Source: a virus. From it: DNA of 35,236 nucleotides. Below the pieces are notes generated by a model. The model did no database searches. It saw only the letters and a program-made list of their open reading frames with translations, and was not told the DNA's origin. The stretch covers positions 1 to 35,236 of IMG/VR virus record IMGVR_UViG_3300028388_001992; one strand, written 5' to 3'. Position numbers and translations under genes: made by a program. Below are positions 1 through 12,954 of this stretch, piece by piece (the first letter of the stretch is position 1; every line of letters starts with the position of its first letter).

Positions 1-1483
1 CACCGTGAACAGCGTTGCGGTTGTGAACGGCGCGGTGACCATTGACAGTGATGACATTGTTGCACCGCACACGGGTGTGAATTACACCGCCGCTAACACG
101 GACACAATCACAACTCACCTTGCGGGCATAGACACAGCGCTTGCGGGTGCGGGCGGTGCGAGTTCAACAGATGACCTGACCAGTGATCACACAGGCGTGA
201 ATTACACGGGTGCGCTGAACGCGACATTGACCACACACTTGAGCGGCATTGACACTGAGTTGAACAACCGCGCTGACACCGTGAACAGCGTTGCGGTTGT
301 GAACGGTGCTGTGACCATTGACGGCGGTGACATTGTTGCACCGCACACGGGTGTGAATTACACCGCCGCTAACACTGACAGCGTTGCGGCACACCTTGCG
401 GGCGTTGATCAACAGCTAGGCACGCTTGACGGGCTGATCACAGCACTTGATTCAACAGATGACCTGACCAGTGACCACACGGGTGTGAATTACACCGGCG
501 CATTGAACGCGACCGTGACCACACACTTGAGCGGTATTGACACCGCTCTTGCGGGCAAATTGAGTGATCTCCTTGTTGACGGTTCGCCCCAGTTGGGGGG
601 TGATCTTGACATAAACGGGCGCGACATCATAACCACAAACAACGCTGACCTTGACCTTGCACCGCACGGCACGGGTGCTGTTGCGGTGCTGGGCAACACA
701 ACAGGCGGCAACAATCAGGGCGCGCTTCAGTTAAAGTGTGAGCATAACACTCACTATGTTGAACTGAAAAGCCCCGCGCATGCATCATTCACAGGTGCAT
801 CATATACTCTCACATTACCCCCTGATGACGGTGACCCTGACCAAGTTTTAAAGACAAACGGCGCGGGTGTACTTGACTGGGCTGACCAAACATCAGCGAC
901 AGATGACCTGACCAGTGATCACACAGGCGTGAATTACACGGGTGCATTGAACGCGACCGTGACCACACACTTGAGCGGTATTGACACTGAGTTGAATAAC
1001 CGCGCTGACACAGTGAACGGCGCGGCGGTTGTGAACGGTGCGGTGACAATTGACAGTGATGACATTGTTGCACCGCACACGGGTGTGAACTACACCGCCG
1101 CTAACACTGACACAGTGACCGCGCACCTGAGTGCGATTGACACAGCGCTTGCGGGCGCGGGCGGCGGGGGCGGCGCGTCAGCACCTAGCGTGAACCCGTC
1201 AACAATCACAACGTCAGATGTGACATTAGGCGCACCCGCCGCTGGGGTTACTGAGGAAATTTACACAATCAATAATAGCTCAACGGCTATCACAGTAACG
1301 TTGCAACCAGCTGCAACAACGGGGTCAGGCTTCAAATACACGTTCAAAGCGCTGGGCTCTGCAAATGTTACGATTGACGCAAATTCTACAGAGACTATTG
1401 ACGGCGTGCTAACCTTTGTGATCTCACAGACTTATGAAGCCTTGACGGTTGTCTGTGACGGGTCAAACTGGCACATCATTTAA
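1..1483 (+). CDS. Tail fiber protein, repeat-rich, 5' end outside window
   Basis: Partial gene: the open frame runs in from the left edge, and the first visible GTG lies inside a repeat (D-T-V-N-S-V), so it is not the true start. About 493 residues are visible. They contain six copies of an HTGVNYT motif, alternating between a 'TSDHTGVNYTGALNAT' and an 'APHTGVNYTAANTDT' version, each followed by a THLSGIDT or AHLAGIDT-like end. Between them sits a region (about residues 185-300) with PQLGGDLDINGRDI and a YTLTLPPDDGDPDQVLKTNG stretch, wording typical of phage fiber shafts. A Gly-rich hinge follows and then a C-terminal beta-rich domain ending DGSNWHII, which resembles receptor-binding fiber ends. 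Inference: a trimeric fiber or baseplate-attached shaft protein that contacts the host. The family is known only by these sequence habits; the specific fiber type and receptor are unknown. Confidence 0.8.
   Translation, partial: TVNSVAVVNGAVTIDSDDIVAPHTGVNYTAANTDTITTHLAGIDTALAGAGGASSTDDLTSDHTGVNYTGALNATLTTHLSGIDTELNNRADTVNSVAVVNGAVTIDGGDIVAPHTGVNYTAANTDSVAAHLAGVDQQLGTLDGLITALDSTDDLTSDHTGVNYTGALNATVTTHLSGIDTALAGKLSDLLVDGSPQLGGDLDINGRDIITTNNADLDLAPHGTGAVAVLGNTTGGNNQGALQLKCEHNTHYVELKSPAHASFTGASYTLTLPPDDGDPDQVLKTNGAGVLDWADQTSATDDLTSDHTGVNYTGALNATVTTHLSGIDTELNNRADTVNGAAVVNGAVTIDSDDIVAPHTGVNYTAANTDTVTAHLSAIDTALAGAGGGGGASAPSVNPSTITTSDVTLGAPAAGVTEEIYTINNSSTAITVTLQPAATTGSGFKYTFKALGSANVTIDANSTETIDGVLTFVISQTYEALTVVCDGSNWHII
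61..1140 (+). repeat. Coding repeats in tail fiber (HTGVNYT modules)
   Basis: Six near-identical copies of a roughly 20-30 codon module start near 61, 180, 335, 470, 910 and 1069. They are so similar at the DNA level (for example the stretch reading GTGTGAATTACAC) that recombination between copies is likely. They are in frame, vary in spacing, and are separated by unique sequence, so they are protein shaft repeats, not a CRISPR array. Confidence 0.85.
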
Positions 1484-3158: not shown

Positions 3159-3373
3159 TCAGCACAGTCACGGTGCTGGGGTTCATTTACACCTATGTCA
3201 AAGACCGCTTTGCGCAAGGGCGGGCAATGGGCACGCTTGAACAGCGTGTCACCGCGCTTGAGAATGACAAGCAAGTGCTTGAGACGCTGACACAGACGTT
3301 GACAGAAACTCGTATGGCTGTGACTCGCCTTGAAGGTAAGGTTGACACATGGATAAACAAGCATGAGAACTGA
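3131..3373 (+). CDS. Small membrane-anchored coiled-coil protein
   Basis: 80 residues from ATG 3131; an upstream in-frame ATG at 3062 would add a sequence with no clear features, and GGGGG at 3116-3120 serves the 3131 start. Residues about 5-23 form one hydrophobic segment (LTTLVSTVTVLGFIYTYV). The rest is a coiled coil with repeated LEQRVTALEND and RLEGKVDTW patterns. The layout matches small phage proteins that accompany holins (XhlA-like by architecture only) and also the minus-strand gene at 10321. It overlaps the previous gene by 28 bases and thyX by 11, so these genes are probably translated together. Confidence 0.5.
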   Translation: MDTLQLTTLVSTVTVLGFIYTYVKDRFAQGRAMGTLEQRVTALENDKQVLETLTQTLTETRMAVTRLEGKVDTWINKHEN

Positions 3374-4049
3374 GCATATTGACCTGTATGATGACGGTAT
3401 AGGTTCAGTGTCACTTGTCGATTATATGGGCAATGACAAGCGTGCGATTAATGCGGCGCGGGTCAGCCTGTTGAATGACGAGATTGACGGCTTTGACGCT
3501 GAACTTGATGAGAGTGATAAGCGGTTGCTCTCATTCCTAGTGAGAGAACAACACACGTCACCCTTTGAACACAGCACGGTCAGTGTGCGCATCACTTGCC
3601 CGCTGTTTGTGAGCAAGCAAATCATGCGTCACCGCACCTTCAGCTTCAATGAGGTGTCACGCCGTTACACAAGCAAGGGGCTTCAGTTTTATGTGCCCAC
3701 TATATTGCGTCAACAGGCGGTCAAGAATCTTCAGTGCTCAACGGGTGAAGCGGTTGAGGACAACACAGCCGTGCGCGCACTGTATGAACGGCAAGTTAAT
3801 GTTGCGCTGGTTGCATACAATGAATTGATTGACGCGGGCGTGTGTCGAGAGCAAGCACGCGGTATCTTGCCCCAGTGCCTATACACTGAGTTTTACATGA
3901 GCGGCAACTTGCTGAACTGGTTTAAGTTCTTGCGCTTGCGCTTGCACCCGCACGCACAACCTGAAGTGCAAGAGGTTGCGCAAGCTGTTCTTGAGTTGTT
4001 GCGTGAATACTTCCCCGTGACAGCCGCGCAATTTATCAATGAAGATTAA
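3363..4049 (+). CDS. thyX: Flavin-dependent thymidylate synthase
   Basis: 228 residues, normal ThyX length. It converts dUMP to dTMP using methylene-tetrahydrofolate, with FAD and NADPH as redox partners, without the classical ThyA chemistry. The signature R-H-R-X7-S is complete at residues 89-99 (RHRTFSFNEVS), followed by RRY. The surrounding FEHSTVSVRITCPLFVSKQ and later ARGILPQCLYTEFYMSGN segments are typical of the family's FAD- and dUMP-binding regions. The ATG at 3363 lies within the 3' end of the preceding gene. The deaminase downstream overlaps by 11 bases and would supply its dUMP. Identification is firm; whether the phage makes modified thymines cannot be judged here. Confidence 0.95.
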   Translation: MRTEHIDLYDDGIGSVSLVDYMGNDKRAINAARVSLLNDEIDGFDAELDESDKRLLSFLVREQHTSPFEHSTVSVRITCPLFVSKQIMRHRTFSFNEVSRRYTSKGLQFYVPTILRQQAVKNLQCSTGEAVEDNTAVRALYERQVNVALVAYNELIDAGVCREQARGILPQCLYTEFYMSGNLLNWFKFLRLRLHPHAQPEVQEVAQAVLELLREYFPVTAAQFINED

Positions 4050-4572
4050 ACACTTAACACACTGGCTTCAACAAACCGTTGCGTTGTCTCAACTCAGTGA
4101 GTGCAAGCGGCGCAAGTTTGGTTGCTTGATCATTGACCCCGCCGTCAACAGTCTCGTCACTGACGGGTATAACGGCGGCGCACGGGGCGGGTCACGGTGT
4201 TGCGGCGGTGAAGATACTTGCTTGCGTGAAGTTGAACAGATACCCAGCGGTGAACGGCTTGCACGCGGGTGCAATCACGCTGAAGCAAACGCTGTTGCAA
4301 ACGCGGCGCGGCGCGGGGTTGCCCTTGAAGGGTGCTGGCTTATGGTCAACGGTGAACCGTGCCTTGCGTGTGCAAAGCTCATACATCAAGCGGGCATTGC
4401 TCGCGTGATCTTCATAGGCGGTGTATACTCGACAAGTGAAGGTGTTGAATACTTGCGGCGGTATATACCCGCGCATGATGTTGACCTTGACGATACATCA
4501 ACACTTGAAGCGGTGTTGCGCCCGCGCTCTTTTAGTGTACACTTGACGGGTGCGTCACCGTTCAACAAATAA
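4039..4572 (+). CDS. Deoxycytidylate (dCMP) deaminase
   Basis: 177 residues. It deaminates dCMP to dUMP, the substrate of ThyX next to it. The zinc-dependent cytidine/deoxycytidylate deaminase motifs are present: H80-A-E82 with the proton-shuttling Glu in CNHAEANA, and P107-C-L-A-C111 carrying the two zinc cysteines. An additional Cys-rich stretch, RCCGGEDTC, lies at about residues 53-61 and could form a second metal site, as in some phage dCMP deaminases (inference). The Asn after HAEA and the length support dCMP over free cytidine. It is translationally overlapped with thyX and sits just before the portal gene, so nucleotide genes are embedded in the structural region. Confidence 0.9.
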   Translation: MKIKHLTHWLQQTVALSQLSECKRRKFGCLIIDPAVNSLVTDGYNGGARGGSRCCGGEDTCLREVEQIPSGERLARGCNHAEANAVANAARRGVALEGCWLMVNGEPCLACAKLIHQAGIARVIFIGGVYSTSEGVEYLRRYIPAHDVDLDDTSTLEAVLRPRSFSVHLTGASPFNK

Positions 4573-4583
4573 GGGTTTGAACA

Positions 4584-6182
4584 ATGGGTATATTCTCAAG
4601 ATTGTTTGGTAAAAGAGATGACGTGAACACTGATGAAGAGGTGTTCAAAGCGTTGCCCGCGCCCAGCGCAAAACCCGCTGTGCCGCTGAGTCAACAAGTC
4701 AGTTCTAGTGATATCGCAAACGCATACATGCTTGAAGGTATGAATGAGGGGGGTGAGACTTCACGCGGGCTTGATTATGATCAACTGTTGTCAATGACTC
4801 GCGTGCCGCTCATAGCCGCGATCATTCAAACGCGCATCAATCAGGTTGCAGAGTTTGCAACCCCCAGCCGTGACGGTTTTGAAGTGGGGTTCATGATCCG
4901 TTTAAAGGATGAGAACGCAACACCTAGTGATGCAGACCTAGAGACAATTGAGCAACTGTATCAGTTCATACTTGATTGCGGTGACAACCGCATTGCGCAA
5001 GAGACAAACTTTGAATCATTCTTGCGCATGCTTGTGCGTGACTCACTCACCTATGATCAAGCGTGCTTTGAGATCATACGCAATCGGGGCGGCGGTGTAG
5101 CTGGTTTTATGAACGTAGACAGCCGCACAATTAGGCGCACAAAGATGACCCCCGATGAACGCAAGGCGGGGCGGCGTGACCCTAAGAAACCGCAATTTGT
5201 GCAGGTGATAGACAACAAACCGAAAGCTGAATTTATGGCACATGATTTGTGCTTTGGCGTGCGCCGCCCGCGCTCTGATCTGCGGTTTCACGGTTACGGT
5301 TTCCCTGAACTTGAAGAGGCGGTTGGGCTGATCACACACTTGTTGAACGCCGATATATACAACGCCGCAAACTTCACAAACGGCATCAGCGTTGCGGGCA
5401 TCATTGCGGTGAAGAGTAAGATGAACCCGCAACTGTTCAGATCATTCAGGCGTGAGTTCTATCAAATGTTGAGCGGGTCAGCTAACGCAAAGAAAACCCC
5501 GCTGGTTCAATTAGACCCTGACAGCAATGAAGATTTGAAGGCGTTGAACCTGAGTGCGAGCAATAAAGATATGGAGTTTCAACAGTGGCAACACTACCTG
5601 TTGAAGTGCATATGCGCGCTGTTTCAGATTGACCCGATGGAGTTAGGTTTCAACTTTGGGCAAGAGGGTCAGCGCTCATCACTCAATCAGAACACGGGCA
5701 CTGAACGTGTGCTGATGAGCAAAGAAAAGGGCTTGCGCCCGATGTTGAGAGCAATTCAACAATGGATCAACCGCTATGTGATTGACCATTTAGATGACCG
5801 CTTTGAGCTTGCGTTTATAGGGCTTGACACGTCACCAGCTAAAGACCAACTTGCGTTAAACATTGATAAGGTCAAGACAATCATGACAATCAATGAAGTG
5901 CGTGCGCTGTATGATCTCAAGCCGTTGCCTAATGGTGATGTGATCCTTGACCCCACATTTATAAACGCATACGGCGCGGGCGCTGATGCGGGCGCTGATG
6001 CGGTCATCACGCCTGAGAATGACGCTAGTCTTGAGTTAGGCACTGACGCTGAAGCTGAACCTGAAGCTGAACCTGAACCTGAAGCTGAACCTGAAGCTGA
6101 ACCTGAAGCTGAACCTGAAGCTGAACCTGAAGCTGAACCTGAAGCAAACCGCGTTTACACTGTGAGTCTTGATGATGAGTAA
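4584..6182 (+). CDS. Portal protein
   Basis: 532 residues. It forms the dodecameric ring at the capsid vertex through which DNA enters and leaves. Start ATG 4584 follows AAGGG. Portal-like features are the N-terminal MGIFSRLFGKR, the early LLSMTRVPLIAAIIQTRINQ helix, the middle VRDSLTYDQACFEIIRN segment with NVDSRTIRR, and the FQIDPMELGF and LNQNTGTERV wing/stem segments. The order of genes after it (minor head protein, protease, scaffold, capsid) agrees. The C terminus carries a run of Glu-Ala-Glu-Pro repeats (about residues 490-519), an unusual acidic tail that may vary in length. It is followed with overlap by the metallopeptidase-like gene. Confidence 0.88.
   Translation: MGIFSRLFGKRDDVNTDEEVFKALPAPSAKPAVPLSQQVSSSDIANAYMLEGMNEGGETSRGLDYDQLLSMTRVPLIAAIIQTRINQVAEFATPSRDGFEVGFMIRLKDENATPSDADLETIEQLYQFILDCGDNRIAQETNFESFLRMLVRDSLTYDQACFEIIRNRGGGVAGFMNVDSRTIRRTKMTPDERKAGRRDPKKPQFVQVIDNKPKAEFMAHDLCFGVRRPRSDLRFHGYGFPELEEAVGLITHLLNADIYNAANFTNGISVAGIIAVKSKMNPQLFRSFRREFYQMLSGSANAKKTPLVQLDPDSNEDLKALNLSASNKDMEFQQWQHYLLKCICALFQIDPMELGFNFGQEGQRSSLNQNTGTERVLMSKEKGLRPMLRAIQQWINRYVIDHLDDRFELAFIGLDTSPAKDQLALNIDKVKTIMTINEVRALYDLKPLPNGDVILDPTFINAYGAGADAGADAVITPENDASLELGTDAEAEPEAEPEPEAEPEAEPEAEPEAEPEAEPEANRVYTVSLDDE
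6051..6140 (+). repeat. 12-bp tandem repeat encoding the acidic Glu-Ala-Glu-Pro tail of the portal
   Basis: Seven copies of GAAGCTGAACCT, with one extra GAACCT hexamer after the second copy, lie in frame near the 3' end of the portal gene. The copies are almost perfect, which suggests recent slippage; any change by whole units keeps the frame. The complement gives an open Phe/Arg/Ser frame that is an artefact. Confidence 0.9.
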
Positions 6183-7941
6183 GTTGACATTCAGCGATTT
6201 AACGAGAGCGGCACAGACTGTGCGCGGTCTACTCGCAAAGGGCGCGGGGCATAAATACATCAAGCGCATACCGGTGAGTATGACAAAGACGGGGCGCGTA
6301 AAGTACCGTTATATATACAAAGAAACTCACACAGTACGCGGCAAACATTTGCTTGATGAAGCGCACTTGAAGGTGGGCACAAAACTGATGCTTGAAACCG
6401 GTCACGGTAAACAAGTGCATGCTCACATCAGAGCGGTCAACGGTGACAAGGTAACGATTGAGTATGATGACGGTGCGCGCAAGGGTGAGACAAAGACACT
6501 GACCAAACAGAAGTTGTTGAGTGAGTTTGATGAGGCGCACGGGCTGGGTCAGAAGATTGATGAGGCACGCAAGCAAGCACAAGAGGACGTTGAAACAGCC
6601 CGCCGTTCAAAGGCTTCAGAGAAGGTGATTGCACGGCTTGAAGCACGGGTTGAAAGGTTGCGGCGTGAGATCAAAAGAGACGTGCCCAGCGCACTGCAAA
6701 AGAAGATTCTTAAAGATCACAGCGTGACCACTGAGAAAGTTGAGAAACACCGCCAGCGGCTTAACCGCAAGCGGGCGGGTGACTTACGCAACCCAGTTGA
6801 TATCATGGTCAAACGCATAGACAGCCTGACAAGTGACGGCGTTGATGAGGCGGTCACTAGTTACAACAGTATGCTTGAGCGTGCGGCGGCTGATAATCAA
6901 GATGTGCTCACGGCAATTGAGGCTTATCAAGATCTCATCAGCGTGACATTCTCAAACTCTGATGACCTGAATAGCATCATGCAAACACAGGCTGATAATT
7001 TAACATATATCCTAGACACTTATGACCTGTCACCTGACATGACGGGCACTGACGCCTTGCGACAATTACCCACGAAACAACACCCCCAGTTTATACAAGA
7101 TGTTAAGAAACGCACAGGGCATGACGTGCGCAAGCACCCGCAAACACTAAAACAGATAGTTTCATCTTTTCAAAGTGCGGAAACTGTGCGTCAGCAAATG
7201 GTTGAGACGCGCATGAATTCAGAAGTTGCACAGCGTGCGCACGCGGCAATACAAGAGCACGTTGAGAAAGCATGTGCTGATTTCAGCTTTAGTGATATGA
7301 AGTACAGTGAGGGTGAGTATCACGCGAACCACAAGAGAGATGCACGCAAGCGAACAACTAACCAGCGCGAGATAATGAACGGCAATGCGCCTATGCTTGC
7401 GCACGTTGAAGATGTGTTTGAGCGCGCATATCCTGAACGCAAAGCGCACAAGACAAAAGTCAGTGTGACTAATGACACCCGCGCATCTGCTGAAATGGAT
7501 GACGCAAACAAGTCAACACTATCACTTGTCGCGGTCGATTCAAGAACAGCGGCGCATGAATTAGCACACACTCTTGAGGGTACATTTGATGTGCGTCAGC
7601 CGTATCAACAGCGTATTCAAGAGGCCGTAACGCTCACACACTTGACGCGCACAGACACAGCCAGTGAAGTTCTGTATGGTGACCGCAATGAGCAAGCCCT
7701 AAGTGACAGTTACACAAGCACATACACAGGCAAGGTGTACAACAACGGCGCAACAGAGCTGGTATCAATGGGCGTTGAAGAGTTCTTTGATCATCGGACA
7801 CGCGGGTTTGATTACGTTGAGTTTAGGTCAATCCCGCTTGACCCCGTTCAGGTGCAAATGAAGAGAATTACAAACTTTGCACTGAATGACCCTCATCACT
7901 ATCTTGTCACATACGGAATACTGAAGGGGTACACTAAATGA
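6172..7941 (+). CDS. Minor head protein with HExxH zinc-metallopeptidase domain
   Basis: 589 residues from ATG 6172 (ATG 6175 also possible), overlapping the portal stop. The N-terminal HKYIKRIPV...YRYIYKE pattern (about residues 20-45) is a motif I associate with large phage and mobile-element proteins; its role is unknown. A basic, SH3-like stretch follows (about 55-115), then long Glu/Arg-rich helices. Near the C terminus, H462-E-L-A-H fits the HExxH zinc site in AAHELAHTLEG, and about 60 residues later ATELVSMGVEEFF offers a Glu as a third ligand. Position directly after the portal points to a virion or capsid-assembly role (inference). Possible tasks are proteolysis during assembly or an ejected peptidase; none is shown. 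Confidence 0.7.
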   Translation: MMSKLTFSDLTRAAQTVRGLLAKGAGHKYIKRIPVSMTKTGRVKYRYIYKETHTVRGKHLLDEAHLKVGTKLMLETGHGKQVHAHIRAVNGDKVTIEYDDGARKGETKTLTKQKLLSEFDEAHGLGQKIDEARKQAQEDVETARRSKASEKVIARLEARVERLRREIKRDVPSALQKKILKDHSVTTEKVEKHRQRLNRKRAGDLRNPVDIMVKRIDSLTSDGVDEAVTSYNSMLERAAADNQDVLTAIEAYQDLISVTFSNSDDLNSIMQTQADNLTYILDTYDLSPDMTGTDALRQLPTKQHPQFIQDVKKRTGHDVRKHPQTLKQIVSSFQSAETVRQQMVETRMNSEVAQRAHAAIQEHVEKACADFSFSDMKYSEGEYHANHKRDARKRTTNQREIMNGNAPMLAHVEDVFERAYPERKAHKTKVSVTNDTRASAEMDDANKSTLSLVAVDSRTAAHELAHTLEGTFDVRQPYQQRIQEAVTLTHLTRTDTASEVLYGDRNEQALSDSYTSTYTGKVYNNGATELVSMGVEEFFDHRTRGFDYVEFRSIPLDPVQVQMKRITNFALNDPHHYLVTYGILKGYTK

Positions 7942-8255
7942 GTGAAAGTCTTGAGATTCAATGTACTTACAGGGGCAAGAGCGCAAAGGTTGCGCTCACT
8001 TGGGATGACACGCCGTTCATGTGTGTTGCCAAGTATGAAGGCGCGGGTGAAGTGCTGGGCGTGTTTGCCCTTATGCTTGAGACGTTCTCAGGCTATCACA
8101 TACAACCGCCGTCAGTGTTTAATGTTGAGACATACCTGAACACCGCTCAAGCCGCGTCAGCGCGTTTTGAAGGGTTCACCTATACCGTTGACCCTGAGTT
8201 CAGCCTGAGTGATTATCTTGACCCCGCTGACAAAGACCCTGAGAAGGTTTACTGA
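7938..8255 (+). CDS. Hypothetical protein
   Basis: 105 residues, ATG overlapping the previous stop (ATGA) and ending one base into the next start, so it is tightly coupled within the head operon. I do not recognise the family. It begins with a beta-like MSESLEIQCTYRGKSAKVAL segment, has a hydrophobic helix around VLGVFALMLETFSGY, and ends in an acidic FSLSDYLDPADKDPEKVY. There is no membrane segment or catalytic motif. Conservation of place between minor head genes suggests an assembly accessory, but function is unknown. Confidence 0.6.
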   Translation: MSESLEIQCTYRGKSAKVALTWDDTPFMCVAKYEGAGEVLGVFALMLETFSGYHIQPPSVFNVETYLNTAQAASARFEGFTYTVDPEFSLSDYLDPADKDPEKVY

Positions 8256-9562
8256 TGAGCAAGTCATTTGATGTGCCGCAAGCGGTACGGCGGCAAGCCC
8301 AGCGCGGGCTTGACCTGAGAAAAGAGCACGGGCGCGGCGGGCTGTCTACACAGCAAGCAGGTGCGCAAGGTATTGGGTCAGGCGTACAACGCGCCGCTGA
8401 TCTTGTTGAAGGGCGCGTAACTTACAACACGGTCAAGCGCATGCTTGCGTTCTTTAACCGGCACAAAGCCTACAAAGAGCACCACACAATGAACCCGCCA
8501 AGCAACAGCCTGATCAGTTGGTTGTTGTGGGGTGGTGACGCGGGGTATAAGTGGGCACAGCGTGTTGTGCGTGATGAAGAGAAACTTGAAAAGGGATCAT
8601 TCACCGCGCTTGCGCTGGGTGTGACTGATGAGGCGTTCACAGAAGATGAGCCCGCGCCCGCACCGCCCGCATCTTTTCAAGAGTTAGTGACCCGCGCACA
8701 GGTCGCTGAATCGAATAGAGAAGCGGCACAGAGTTTAAGTGAAATCACAGTTGAGCAAGCTGAGAAGATGCACGCTGATGACCCTATGTTTGCGCCGCCT
8801 TCATCAAAGCCCTTCATCAAGTCATTGCCTGAAGATGATGATGAAGATGAAGATGATGATGACACGCTTGACGCACCCGCTGTGTTTGCGCCTGATATCA
8901 ACTTACCCCCCGCCTTGAGAGGGTATGTCAAGAAAGCGTTGAAGCACCGGCGGTTGACGGGGCAAGGCTCAACCGCCGCAAAGCGTGTTGCGCAAGCACT
9001 TCAACGCGGGCGCTATGATCAGATTGACGTGAACGTGATTGAGCGCATGCTTGATGGTCTGGGTGATGATGACCCTGCGGCACAGGCTGACGCACGGCTT
9101 GCGGGCGGTCACCTCATGCTTGAAGCGTTAAGCCGCGCACAACCTCATGTGCCTGACAAGTACCTTGAAGGCTTGAAGGGTGAAGCGCGGGCAAAGCGCA
9201 AGCGTCAGATACAGGCGCGGGTGAAGGGGCGTGATTCATACAAGCCCCTTGAGGGTGACAAAGACGCAAAGACAAAGCCCAGCAGATACAGCAAAACGAG
9301 ACTTGCCGCCGCCGTGCGTGAAGAGATCAAAGGCAAGGGCAAGGGTGAGTTCTTACGCGCCGCCGCTAAGATAGGCAAAGCCCCGCGCCGCATACTTGAG
9401 CAGGTGTATGACAGGGGTTTGAAGGCGTGGGCAACCAGCGGTCACAGAGTAGGTGCGACCGCACAACAGTGGGCAAAGGCGCGGGTATATTCATTCTTGA
9501 CCGGCGGCAAGACTACAAAGACAGGTGACAAAGACTTGCATGACAAATGGAAGTCAGAATAA
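8255..9562 (+). CDS. Head-module protein with duplicated N-terminal motif and DUF5824-like C terminus
   Basis: 435 residues, start ATG overlapping the previous TGA. Residues about 7-70 (VPQAVRRQAQRGLDLRKEHG with GVQRAADLVEGRVTYNTVKRM and LAFFNRHKAYK) match a motif common in phage head-region proteins. A degenerate second copy occurs at about 220-275 (LPPALRGYVKKALKHRRLTG ... VNVIERMLDGLG). A Pro/Ala and then Glu/Asp-rich linker with an Asp/Glu run (about 189-205) separates them. The C terminus, with KYLEGLKGEARAKRKRQIQ, then ILEQVYDRGLKAWATSGHR and AQQWAKARVYSFL, resembles DUF5824 proteins of myoviruses. Function is unknown; the basic C terminus could bind DNA. It converges on the minus-strand cyclase, overlapping it by nine bases. 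Confidence 0.65.
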   Translation: MSKSFDVPQAVRRQAQRGLDLRKEHGRGGLSTQQAGAQGIGSGVQRAADLVEGRVTYNTVKRMLAFFNRHKAYKEHHTMNPPSNSLISWLLWGGDAGYKWAQRVVRDEEKLEKGSFTALALGVTDEAFTEDEPAPAPPASFQELVTRAQVAESNREAAQSLSEITVEQAEKMHADDPMFAPPSSKPFIKSLPEDDDEDEDDDDTLDAPAVFAPDINLPPALRGYVKKALKHRRLTGQGSTAAKRVAQALQRGRYDQIDVNVIERMLDGLGDDDPAAQADARLAGGHLMLEALSRAQPHVPDKYLEGLKGEARAKRKRQIQARVKGRDSYKPLEGDKDAKTKPSRYSKTRLAAAVREEIKGKGKGEFLRAAAKIGKAPRRILEQVYDRGLKAWATSGHRVGATAQQWAKARVYSFLTGGKTTKTGDKDLHDKWKSE

Positions 9563-10324
9563 GTCACGCCACATCTCACGCAAGGTGTTGTGCGCGTCTC
9601 TTATCCCCCAGTCACCTATCACCCCTAAGTATTCAAGAACAGCAAGAAAACATGTGAGCGCATAAAGCGCGGTCAACAGCGCGGGCGGCATGATGTACCG
9701 TTTGACGCGGCGCACCCATAGTTGACGCGGTGTCAACGGCGGCGGTTTCAAGAGCTTCACCTTGTCACTTTCTTGAGGTGTCATCAGGCGGCTGGCGTTT
9801 GCTGATATTGCATACAACTTGAGCGGTGCTTTGACACCTTTCAAACGCCACAAGCCCACATCACGCATCAACAGTTTGCCGCGCACGCTCGCGGCGTATT
9901 CCCCAGCGCGTCTACTCATCAGGGTTTGCCCGCCGCTTGCAACGCTCATCACCCGCGCCGTGATCACTTTGTGTATGCCGTCAACCTCAACAGGCTTTGC
10001 ACCGCGTGCAACAAAGTGTGCGGCGTTGCTGTGCATGATGATATGCCCGCAATGTATACCCGCCCGTGACCGCAAGTTAATGTGGTGTTCAACAAGCGCG
10101 TGATAGGCTGTGATGTATGCGAGCGCTTCCCGCATAGTCTCAAAGATCAACAGCGCGCCGTCAGTCTTGTCAATCTCAAGCCCGTTGTACTTGATCAGCA
10201 ACCCCCTGAATATGCTGTCATACACACGCATTGCCTGACTTGCGCGCACGTCACCTTGTGACTCAATGAACTTTGTTGAGTCAACAAGGTCAATACACAC
10301 AAGTATGACAAAGGCGCGTTTCAC
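9554..10324 (-). CDS. Class III nucleotidyl cyclase with C-terminal membrane anchor
   Basis: 256 residues. Class III cyclases make a cyclic nucleotide from an NTP. The catalytic domain (about residues 4-175) keeps both metal-binding aspartates: D12 in CIDLVDST and D55 in EIDKTDGALLIF. It also keeps the RAGIHCG core strand (87-93), GAKPVEVDGI, R124 in ITARVMS, SGGQTL, and the closing LWRLKGVKAPLKLY. The usual transition-state Asn four residues before the Arg is Val here, as in the related bacterial subfamily I recall. Substrate (ATP, GTP, CTP or UTP) cannot be inferred. A Pro-rich linker leads to one hydrophobic helix (about 211-236), so it is probably membrane bound. GTG start, GTGA overlap with the upstream minus-strand gene, weak own ribosome-binding site: translation is coupled. 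It is not a GGDEF enzyme. Confidence 0.88.
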   Translation of the reverse strand: MKRAFVILVCIDLVDSTKFIESQGDVRASQAMRVYDSIFRGLLIKYNGLEIDKTDGALLIFETMREALAYITAYHALVEHHINLRSRAGIHCGHIIMHSNAAHFVARGAKPVEVDGIHKVITARVMSVASGGQTLMSRRAGEYAASVRGKLLMRDVGLWRLKGVKAPLKLYAISANASRLMTPQESDKVKLLKPPPLTPRQLWVRRVKRYIMPPALLTALYALTCFLAVLEYLGVIGDWGIRDAHNTLREMWRDLF

Positions 10325-10653
10325 TTCAGCACTTCAAGCTCTGCTTCAATCTTTGCAAGGCGGGTGTATACTTCACTGGGTGCTATACCTTCATTCAATC
10401 GAGTCTCGACACGCGCCAGCCGTTCACTTGACTGTTCATCTCTAGGCTTCAGGTCATTGTTGATCACCCCGAAAACCTCAATACGCCCTTGCCTATTCGC
10501 TTCAATGCCGTCTTTGCAGTCTTGCACCTGATGTGTGAGCGCTTGCAACCGCGCTTCAATATGCGTGATCTGTTTGCTAAAACTCCACAACAGCCCGCCC
10601 GCCGCAACAATCGCTGGTAATACGTCCATCAACAGTTGACTGATGTTATCCAT
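10321..10653 (-). CDS. Membrane-anchored coiled-coil protein, partner of the cyclase
   Basis: 110 residues from ATG 10653, which has GAGAGG upstream (minus strand); a longer start at 10689 would read through the promoter region and is less likely. One hydrophobic segment lies at about residues 5-25 (LLMDVLPAIVAAGGLLWSF). The remainder is a long charged helix with heptad-like repeats (IEARLQALTHQVQDC, RLARVETRLNEG, RLAKIEAELEVLK). It is first in a two-gene minus-strand operon and its TGA overlaps the GTG of the cyclase gene. Inference: it could be the membrane effector, a scaffold for the cyclase, or a superinfection-exclusion factor. By fold alone it also resembles small lysis accessories such as the gene at 3131. 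No nucleotide-binding domain is visible. Confidence 0.65.
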   Translation of the reverse strand: MDNISQLLMDVLPAIVAAGGLLWSFSKQITHIEARLQALTHQVQDCKDGIEANRQGRIEVFGVINNDLKPRDEQSSERLARVETRLNEGIAPSEVYTRLAKIEAELEVLK

Positions 10654-10682
10654 TGTCACACCTCTCAAGTATCGGTTATACT
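10653..10682 (+). promoter_or_regulatory. Sigma70-like promoter for the helix-turn-helix gene
   Basis: TTGTCA at 10653-10658 and TATACT at 10677-10682, each five of six matches to consensus, are separated by 18 bases. The start codon served is ATG 10716, with AAAGG six bases upstream of it. The -35 element lies at the start codon of the divergent minus-strand gene, so the two transcription units share control sequence. Confidence 0.55.
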
Positions 10683-10687
10683 GATAC
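10669..10687. promoter_or_regulatory. Imperfect 19-bp palindrome, candidate operator
   Basis: The sequence GTATCGGTTATACTGATAC pairs in seven of nine symmetric positions, with perfect outer arms GTATC/GATAC. It covers the -10 element of the plus-strand promoter and lies just upstream of the minus-strand cassette. It is a plausible binding site for the adjacent helix-turn-helix protein, which would then control itself and the cyclase genes (inference). Confidence 0.5.
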
Positions 10688-10715: not shown

Positions 10716-11414
10716 ATGCTCAAGCGTTTCTTTAGTGCTGAGATCATACGCACACCGCAAAGTTCAGAGATGTATTTCACACGTAAGTCAATCAGCGCAA
10801 TGCTGGGCATGACAGAGAAGGTGATTGAACACCGGTTGAAGCGCTTGAAGTATGAGAGCTTGAAGGGTTTGCGGTATGACGGCAAGTATAAGGGGCGCAA
10901 GCATTTCTTTAAGTATGGGCTTGATGCGGTGCTGGCGCTCATCTTCACCTTGCCCGCCGATGATGAACGGCGGGTTGAGCGTCACGCAATGATTATTGAC
11001 TTTATCACGTCACACATCAGCAACTTGTGTCTTGATGAGTTCACCAGCCTGAAGGGGTACAACTTGCCGATTGATTGCCGCCGCGCAATACTAGCGCACG
11101 TGTGTGGAGTTGAACACTATACTGACATAGTTGCCGCACGCTTTGACCCTGATGCGCCGTACAAGGGTTCAATGTTGCGCAACCTACATTGCACACCTGA
11201 GTTGCTTAGTCAGCCTGAAGTGTATGTGACCCGTGCGGAAGTCACACGGGTCAAAGCGGTTGACCTTGCGGTGCATCTTCTCACATCACACCTTGTTGAC
11301 ACCCCCGCGTCAGTCTTACTTGCTCAGTTAGGAATAGACACCGCACGGGGCGCTGACTATACTGAGCAAGAAAAGATTAACGTCATAGCGCACATACGCG
11401 GCGCTGTGTTATAA
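10716..11414 (+). CDS. Putative helix-turn-helix DNA-binding protein
   Basis: 232 residues from ATG 10716, preceded by AAAGG at six bases. Residues about 18-50 (YFTRKSISAMLGMTEKVIEH and RLKRLKYESLKG) fit a helix-turn-helix with a basic recognition helix, followed by an HFFKYGLDAVLAL segment reminiscent of RhuM/KilA-type phage regulators. The remaining 150 residues are helical and unassigned. It lies divergent to the cyclase operon with a palindrome between them, so it may regulate the cassette (inference). It ends just before the protease gene, and its location interrupts the otherwise structural gene order. It could alternatively be an unrelated head-region gene. Confidence 0.5.
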   Translation: MLKRFFSAEIIRTPQSSEMYFTRKSISAMLGMTEKVIEHRLKRLKYESLKGLRYDGKYKGRKHFFKYGLDAVLALIFTLPADDERRVERHAMIIDFITSHISNLCLDEFTSLKGYNLPIDCRRAILAHVCGVEHYTDIVAARFDPDAPYKGSMLRNLHCTPELLSQPEVYVTRAEVTRVKAVDLAVHLLTSHLVDTPASVLLAQLGIDTARGADYTEQEKINVIAHIRGAVL

Positions 11415-12403: not shown

Positions 12404-12432
12404 ACTAACCTGACCTTATAGGAGTGACAACA
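12369..12432 (+). promoter_or_regulatory. Promoter and leader of scaffold/capsid genes
   Basis: TTGTAT (12369-12374), 17 bases, TATAAT (12392-12397), followed by CACTAAACTAA. The stretch TATAATnnnTAAACTAA recurs ahead of the sheath gene at 17171. The leader ends GGAGTGACAACA (12421-12432), the same 12 bases found before the chaperone gene at 19639. It overlaps the end of the protease gene. Confidence 0.55.
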
Positions 12433-12954
12433 ATGAGTGATCAAGTCACCGTTGAACAGCCTGTTGACGTTGCCGCTGATGAGCACGTTGACATTAATCG
12501 CCTTGAAGAGTTGCTTGTTGACCTCAACAAGTCAATGAACGCCGTTGACCCGTCAGTTGAGATTATCAGCAAGGGCGCTGACGCAATTGTTGAGCAAAAC
12601 CGCGCACTTGTTGAGGCGGTTGAGAAGTCAATTGACGAGATGAGCAAGAAGATTGACGCGCTTGCTGAGAAGGTGAACGCGCTTGACGGACTCAACGCCC
12701 GCGTTGAAAAGGGGTTCAGTGACCTTGCCGCACAGCCATTGCCCAGCAAGGCTGTGATGAGTGAAGCTGAGATTGCACCCGCTGACGCACAGCCTGTTGA
12801 AGCACCTGTGTCAAAGGCTGACGTGCTCTCAAAGGCACTCACTGCAATGAGCAACACAACTGACCCTTCACGCCTTGCACAGTTACGCAAGGGTGTTGCC
12901 CAGCTTGAATCAAACTTTAACCCCGCACAGGTTGCGGCTGATCTGTCACTTTAA
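12433..12954 (+). CDS. Probable capsid scaffold protein
   Basis: 173 residues from ATG 12433, eight bases after AGGAG. It is almost entirely helical and acidic, with clear heptad patterns in the middle (VEKSIDEMSKKIDALAEKVN at about 75-94), Ala/Pro/Val-rich linkers, and a short basic patch near LAQLRKGVAQLESN. There is no catalytic motif. Lying between the prohead protease and the major capsid gene, it fits an internal scaffold that is degraded by the protease. It could instead be a minor internal head protein; the assignment rests on position and coiled-coil character. Confidence 0.7.
   Translation: MSDQVTVEQPVDVAADEHVDINRLEELLVDLNKSMNAVDPSVEIISKGADAIVEQNRALVEAVEKSIDEMSKKIDALAEKVNALDGLNARVEKGFSDLAAQPLPSKAVMSEAEIAPADAQPVEAPVSKADVLSKALTAMSNTTDPSRLAQLRKGVAQLESNFNPAQVAADLSL

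Follow-up and report, generated by a model that had tools for sequence, protein, structure and literature searches.

A conserved phage gene pair predicted to encode a membrane-tethered class III nucleotidyl cyclase and an exchangeable membrane coiled-coil partner

The window analyzed here is the whole 35,236-nucleotide stretch of the IMG/VR virus record IMGVR_UViG_3300028388_001992, which carries portal, protease, SU10-type capsid, tail-sheath, and baseplate genes, as judged by profile matches. Within its head operon lie two genes in antisense orientation. SMALL (positions 10321–10653, minus strand) begins with ATG and encodes a 110-residue protein with a predicted N-terminal membrane helix followed by a coiled coil, and CYC (9554–10324, minus strand) begins with GTG and encodes a 256-residue putative class III nucleotidyl cyclase with a C-terminal membrane helix. 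The TGA stop codon of SMALL overlaps the GTG start codon of CYC in the tetranucleotide GTGA (10321–10324, minus strand). On one side, CYC converges with a head-operon gene of the DUF5824 family (8255–9562, plus strand; PF19141, E = 3.5e-20) and overlaps it by 9 bases; on the other, SMALL diverges from a head-operon gene (10716–11414, plus strand) whose ATG lies at 10716, as in relatives, and downstream of which lie the protease, scaffold-like, and SU10-type capsid genes. A preliminary description of the window had placed an overlapping minus-strand pair inside the head operon, and had listed in CYC the residues D12 and D55, the motif RAGIHCG (residues 87–93), R124, and a C-terminal helix, and in SMALL an N-terminal helix and a coiled coil; we confirmed each of these features in the sequence. 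The main point to emerge beyond this single window, from comparison of sequences, is that several phage lineages carry the module and that its partner protein is exchangeable.

We found that CYC matches the NCBIfam family TIGR04510 (mod_pep_cyc) over residues 8–189 (E = 1.5e-34, 119.6 bits); the match covers only positions 8–202 of the 814-position model and does not reach its curated full-length cut-off of 400 bits. Matches were also obtained to the NCBIfam LipJ model (E = 1.3e-9) and, among PDB sequences, to Rv1900c (E = 5e-4). The window CYC had no match in Pfam (E up to 0.1) or PHROGs (E up to 1), and the Pfam cyclase family PF00211 had no match across the window's record. An AlphaFold2 (AF2) model built from a 14-row alignment had a mean predicted local distance difference test score (pLDDT) of 84.8 (the five models ranged from 52.9 to 84.8, and residues 106–110 scored below 50). 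Residues 1–176 of the model (9797–10324, minus strand) matched the cyclase domain of Rv1900c (1ybu_B) with Z = 22.1 and a root-mean-square deviation of 1.8 over 162 residues, at 24% identity. By this model, the catalytic domain of CYC is a class III nucleotidyl cyclase fold. The preliminary description had assigned CYC to class III and had named structure prediction as a check; the assignment held, and the prediction recovered a cyclase fold together with its metal ligands.

The catalytic residues are strongly conserved. Across the phage CYC rows, D12, I51, D52, D55, L58, R87, G89, and H91 are invariant in all 37 rows that are readable at these positions, and G108, A109, K110, E113, G116, K119, A123, and R124 are invariant in all 38. 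Position 53 is K in 19 rows and R in 18. Position 120, where the N-x3-R motif has its transition-state Asn, is N in 20 of the 38 rows and V in the window. Several established cyclases also lack this Asn, according to the available text of a published account, in which Glu in place of the base-contacting Asp, combined with a missing Asn, is taken elsewhere as compatible with both ATP and GTP (PMC4886424). By our own reading of residue spacing, E113 would occupy the base-contacting position, and CYC would most likely make its product from a purine nucleotide (ATP and/or GTP).

Beyond the catalytic domain, a linker rich in basic residues (residues 189–212 in the window, with seven K/R and no D/E) leads into a hydrophobic stretch at residues 211–229 (9638–9694, minus strand; Kyte-Doolittle mean 1.91), and a membrane helix lies on the C-terminal side in all 36 phage rows in which the 3′ end is present. 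In two other records, a third antisense open reading frame overlaps the end of CYC (1848–2171 of L041, which is the same contig as L032, and 3319–3642 of L043, both minus strand). It encodes 107 residues with several hydrophobic stretches, has no Pfam match at E 0.05 and a best PHROG match at E = 0.039, and possibly represents a three-gene version of the module.

SMALL has its hydrophobic stretch at residues 7–25 (10579–10635, minus strand; Kyte-Doolittle mean 1.81), and a 13-row alignment defined a conserved coiled-coil center at residues 30–71 (10441–10566, minus strand), with NRQGR at 53–57 and FGV at 61–63. In all 14 rows, the 18-residue segment that follows the helix contains two or three K/R residues, and in 12 of the 14 no K/R precedes the helix, a pattern that favors a cytoplasmic location of the coiled coil. 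Some of the 13 SMALL members scored matched, weakly, the PHROG spanin family phrog_739 (8 of 13, best E = 5.4e-5) and the PHROG holin family phrog_1296 (7 of 13, best E = 9.2e-4). Such matches, and the loss of the transition-state Asn from the window CYC, would fit an alternative in which CYC has a cyclase fold without catalysis and belongs to a membrane complex that acts in lysis, in assembly, or in excluding superinfection, with SMALL holin- or spanin-like. We consider this improbable. The matches are of the kind that coiled coils give, because the window gene at 12424–12954 likewise matched 39 PHROGs at E up to 1; the SMALL coil is predicted to be cytoplasmic, unlike that of a spanin; and a dead enzyme would not require that the metal aspartates, Lys110, Glu113, Lys119, and Arg124 be invariant.

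Scans of IMG/VR and GTDB yielded 38 phage-type CYC records, including the window, which form 19 clusters at 90% identity, many records being near-copies. A further contig filed as viral (L168) holds at 5559–6418 a cyclase of the bacterial, NB-ARC type and was excluded from the phage counts. The ratio of nonsynonymous to synonymous substitution (dN/dS) was 0.055–0.193 for CYC (four of eight pairs unsaturated) and 0.059–0.079 for SMALL (four of six pairs unsaturated), ratios that are rough in that some dS values were 1.4–2.3 and the remaining pairs were saturated. By this measure both genes are under purifying selection, and because relatives with the same pair and layout exist and dN/dS is low, the pair is not a chance arrangement. 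That CYC is instead a stray or decaying host gene acquired by one phage would agree with its antisense placement and with the lack of a promoter signal in the window, but the 38 records in 19 clusters, the low dN/dS, and the presence of the intact pair in six lineages leave this explanation a negligible probability.

Among the carriers in the window's phage group, every pair with both flanks visible sits in antisense orientation, with the DUF5824 gene on one side and the next head gene on the other. We kept 80 of the 92 protease loci found. Both flanking genes are visible in 21, with the pair between them in 7 and absent in 14 (two of the pair-less loci, L044 and L062, differ in gene order, and some rows are copies of each other). 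The site is empty in L048 and L050, where the two flanking genes share 4 bases. Other pair-less loci (L045, L046, L049, L052, L053, L055, L057, L059, and L060) have 210–533 bases between the flanks and no convincing gene there.

The module was also found in Mu-type portal phages, in L031 (a 113 kb record) and the closely related L011 (a contig from a GTDB genome of 0.9 Mb), in L030 (a 168 kb record), in L123, and in the related records L153 and L155. Judged by sequence, it is present in six phage lineages. In BLASTP comparisons of the stretches fetched, the carrier lineages share little or nothing beyond the module. The exceptions are that the Mu-portal records belong to one lineage with the L156 set; that the window group and the L156 set share thymidylate synthase, deaminase, and DUF5824-like genes; that the window and L030 share one small protein; and that L006 and L123 share one 408-residue match. 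The gene behind this last match (5328–6647 of L006 and 3254–4396 of L123, 47.5% identical over the 408 residues) lies near the module in otherwise unlike phages and, judged by eye, may be a DNA methylase. In a set of 50,697 deposited phage records, no match was found for the window CYC, the window SMALL, the CYC or the partner of L160, or one bacterial relative, and the L153 CYC gave one weak match (27.1%, E = 1e-5) to an unannotated fecal phage record.

The cassette was earlier proposed to be a moron that might protect the host. "Moron-like" fits it in the cassette sense, because it is self-contained, occurs in unlike phages, and is missing from related ones. Protection of a lysogenic host found no positive support: a search for tyrosine integrase gave no match in 17 distinct records (which may be fragments, other integration routes lying outside this search), and this absence speaks weakly against a lysogeny moron.

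We surveyed the neighbors of CYC in 39 records. L168 was dropped as bacterial, and in L154 and L165 the record ends on the partner side of CYC. All 36 judgeable records have a membrane/coiled-coil gene next to CYC, as do 19 of 19 clusters when the CYCs are grouped at 90% identity. Three types of partner were seen. SMALL lies upstream of CYC in 18 records; a diverged form of 101–103 residues lies upstream in two (L153 and L155); and a two-membrane-helix (2TM) protein of 147–173 residues, whose likely coil was read from the sequence by eye rather than predicted by a program, lies downstream in 16 (L030 and 15 of the L156–L172 set). The diverged form shares with SMALL its layout and the motif R-x-G-R-(I/V) (hhalign probability 50%, E = 1.6e-4; E = 0.005–0.006 in a single-profile search). 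A kinship of SMALL with the 2TM partner was considered and rejected, as the hhalign match (42%) sets membrane helix against coil.

The distribution of these types shows that partners are exchanged. In one lineage, the slot between terminase and portal holds SMALL and CYC in antisense in 6 records (both flanking genes visible in 5) and CYC and the 2TM gene in sense in 16 (both flanks visible in 15, L165 being cut after CYC). When the two slot forms are compared, the portals are 75–78% and the terminases 65–72% identical, and the CYCs 32–39% identical. As these records were retrieved via CYC, an empty slot would have gone unseen. The CYC of L030 groups with those of L004 and L009, in the SMALL clade (support 98/95); SMALL was not found in the 168 kb record, and the partner there is the 2TM form, 56.6% identical to that of L164. 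The L153 and L155 cyclases group with the 2TM-type cyclases (98/99), yet their partner is SMALL-like. These pairings indicate that partner and cyclase types are mixed in nature. Nor was the cyclase found as a lone degraded gene, a state that the preliminary description had treated as contrary to its view: even L030, which has no SMALL, has a 2TM partner.

The adjacency of cyclase and membrane protein in every judgeable case, together with the alternative forms in one slot that phage-phage rivalry would be expected to produce, is also consistent with an analogue of Pycsar or SMODS-SLATT, in which the partner is the effector and the cyclic nucleotide made by CYC, for example on a second infection, makes it perturb the membrane and so stop a competitor. 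The 2TM partner resembles SLATT_fungal (PF18142): all 6 records searched gave a match, located in every case at the partner gene (15.7–17.4 bits; E = 0.0064 in L030). These scores are below the cut-off of 26.5, however, and sub-threshold matches to PF18142 were also obtained in 7 of 14 control genomes; SMALL itself had no SLATT match in a Pfam scan. A search for a cyclic nucleotide monophosphate (cNMP)-binding domain (PF00027) in sets of 10 and 8 records, which comprise the same 17 distinct ones (16 from viruses and one genome, and possibly fragments), detected none, and 10 of 14 control genomes were positive. We judge an effector role for the partner to be unlikely, though not remote.

Alternative forms in one slot would be expected, too, if the module served counter-defense, with the mononucleotide made by CYC competing with host cyclic-nucleotide immunity or falsely setting it, and the partner merely an anchor. 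Panoptes, as far as the available text of its description goes, is an example of the use of decoy cyclic nucleotides in this arms race, in that case by bacteria (PMC12657218). The sequence points to no particular immune system, however, and a decoy would need no constant coiled-coil partner; we give a counter-defense role little credence.

The active site of class III cyclases is shared between two catalytic domains. AnPycC is described, in the available part of the source, as a homodimer (PMC11224242). The simplest trans-acting regulator of such an enzyme would be a membrane protein that is made together with it and whose coiled coil lies on the same side of the membrane. The reading that we prefer, tentatively and with slightly less than even confidence, is that the pair is a transferable phage signaling module consisting of a membrane-tethered class III cyclase and a co-made small membrane coiled-coil protein that regulates it. 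CYC would be active and make a cyclic nucleotide from the substrates proposed above; its catalytic domain would face the cytoplasm, beside the coiled coil of the partner, which would act in trans as a regulatory or dimerizing subunit. The signal would act on host receptors during infection, to the gain of the phage, through reprogramming of the cell or through exclusion of competitors or of host immunity. Because the phage records yielded no receptor domain, the target is more likely to be a receptor of the host, except in the case that the partner is an effector. A more far-reaching version, which is conceivable but doubtful, is that a membrane-tethered cyclase, whose membrane coiled-coil subunits are interchangeable, passes between phages of several unrelated kinds and occupies fixed slots in alternative forms. 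The module would sense membrane events in infection and set off a response directed at competing phages or host immunity: a second-messenger system by and for phages.

Several points weigh against the signaling module as we read it. The activity of CYC and its interaction with SMALL are putative. In the window CYC, V120 replaces the transition-state Asn and the usual base-contacting residues are changed, so that this enzyme could be weak, differently specific, or inactive. The model of SMALL, which is all-helical, is of low confidence (mean pLDDT 69.8), and the topology is derived from charge counts. The rule that a partner adjoins CYC in 36 of 36 records was drawn from the neighbors of CYC alone, and it is solely the lack of a recognizable nucleotide-binding domain that leads us to read the partner as a regulator and not as an effector. 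Finally, a promoter search of the window gave no signal above shuffles (299 of 500 plain base shuffles were as good). Of the 14 regions searched in this way, three of which (L031, L032, and L043) had an anchor point slightly displaced, by a few bases, from the ATG, few shuffles were as good only in L004 (2 of 500), L009 (4 of 500), and L043 (6 of 500).

Other features of the region were noted. An imperfect palindrome at 10669–10687, between SMALL and the next gene, was noticed by eye; it is below the search criterion and was not observed in relatives. The protein encoded at 10716–11414 matched no Pfam family at E 0.1, and its homologue in L043 gave only sub-threshold helix-turn-helix matches. 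At 5–1483 (plus strand), residues 327–380 of the encoded protein match PF25180, the Gp54 "phage antiviral trigger protein" (29.8 bits, cut-off 27). At 3363–4572 (plus strand), a thymidylate synthase ThyX lies beside a deoxycytidylate-type deaminase, and relatives of both genes sit between terminase and CYC in L160, L163, L164, L165, and L166.

The pair is conserved and appears to be a phage module built to make a cyclic nucleotide, with a dedicated but swappable membrane partner. Published accounts, in the parts available to us, describe phages that destroy or soak up cyclic nucleotides; if this module makes one, there would also be phages that send their own second messengers. Two CYCs that are 32–39% identical and have unlike partners in the same slot, together with one natural mixed pair, allow partner swaps to be designed from nature. 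Because the queries listed above gave no clear relative among the 50,697 deposited phage records, pipelines that annotate from those records will overlook the module. What is new here is a family of phage cyclases whose membrane coiled-coil partner is constant in presence but exchangeable in type, a larger finding than the single-window observation. Of the earlier interpretation, the cyclase fold, the constant partner, and the moron-like cassette stand, and kinship with Pycsar beyond architecture and protection of a lysogen find no support.

The module resembles Pycsar in that a class III type cyclase with two metal aspartates lies beside a membrane protein. In CYC, K53 precedes D55 by two residues, the same spacing as that of K104 and D106 in AnPycC (as given in the available text of PMC11224242). 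Position 10, two residues before D12, is C, L, I, M, or V, in contrast to the aromatic F60 of AnPycC. At E up to 0.1, the PADLOC PycC profile gave matches in 2 of the 14 CYC members, with a best E of 0.013 and 0.068 for the window, as against 1.5e-34 for TIGR04510. Because CYC lies outside the PycC family and no cNMP-binding domain was found in the 17 records, we conclude that the module is not Pycsar, and the comparison drawn in the preliminary description does not extend beyond architecture. A VIA-align search with the CYC model had no Pycsar cyclase among the 50 matches listed, which excludes nothing. A PycC search of 299 genomes gave 11 weak matches (42–53 bits, open frames of 319–584 residues), none convincing as PycC.

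The best structural match to CYC, Rv1900c (LipJ) of Mycobacterium tuberculosis, is fused to a lipase-type domain and is not known to have a membrane partner. Like the window CYC, Rv1900c is without the transition-state Asn and has His there, according to the available text of PMC4886424. A phage-borne adenylate cyclase has already been published in the curli clusters of pelagiphages, where it is described after FecR and curli genes (PMC9599517, available text). CsgG was found in 0 of 10 module records; the likeness is one of description. In the open-licence literature we found no description of a phage module consisting of a cyclase and a membrane coiled-coil protein.

Relatives of the cyclase domain were also found in bacteria. 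A GTDB scan yielded 18 proteins (L012–L029) whose cyclase domains are 37–48% identical to that of the window. A tree separated 15 phage rows from the 18 bacterial rows at 100/100. When distant rows were added, the phage cyclases split into two clades, the bacterial rows falling on the same side as the window clade, and a single origin of the phage cyclases is therefore not established. Plasmid matches (7 records, 26.4–28.2% identity) were set aside, as they look like ordinary bacterial cyclases. In the seven bacterial relatives scanned, we found NB-ARC (2), AAA (1), protein kinase (2), FHA (1), and TPR (6) domains; where the cyclase is fused to NB-ARC or AAA with TPR, as in some of them, the layout resembles that of STAND immune sensors. 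The window CYC shares with the TIGR04510 family and these proteins the signature E-I-D-K-T-D-G and G-A-K...E.(E/D)G..K....R. The bacterial proteins are multidomain, with 448–1376 residues (two are cut by contig ends); the phage CYCs differ from them in having a C-terminal membrane helix and a separate partner in place of the fused domains.

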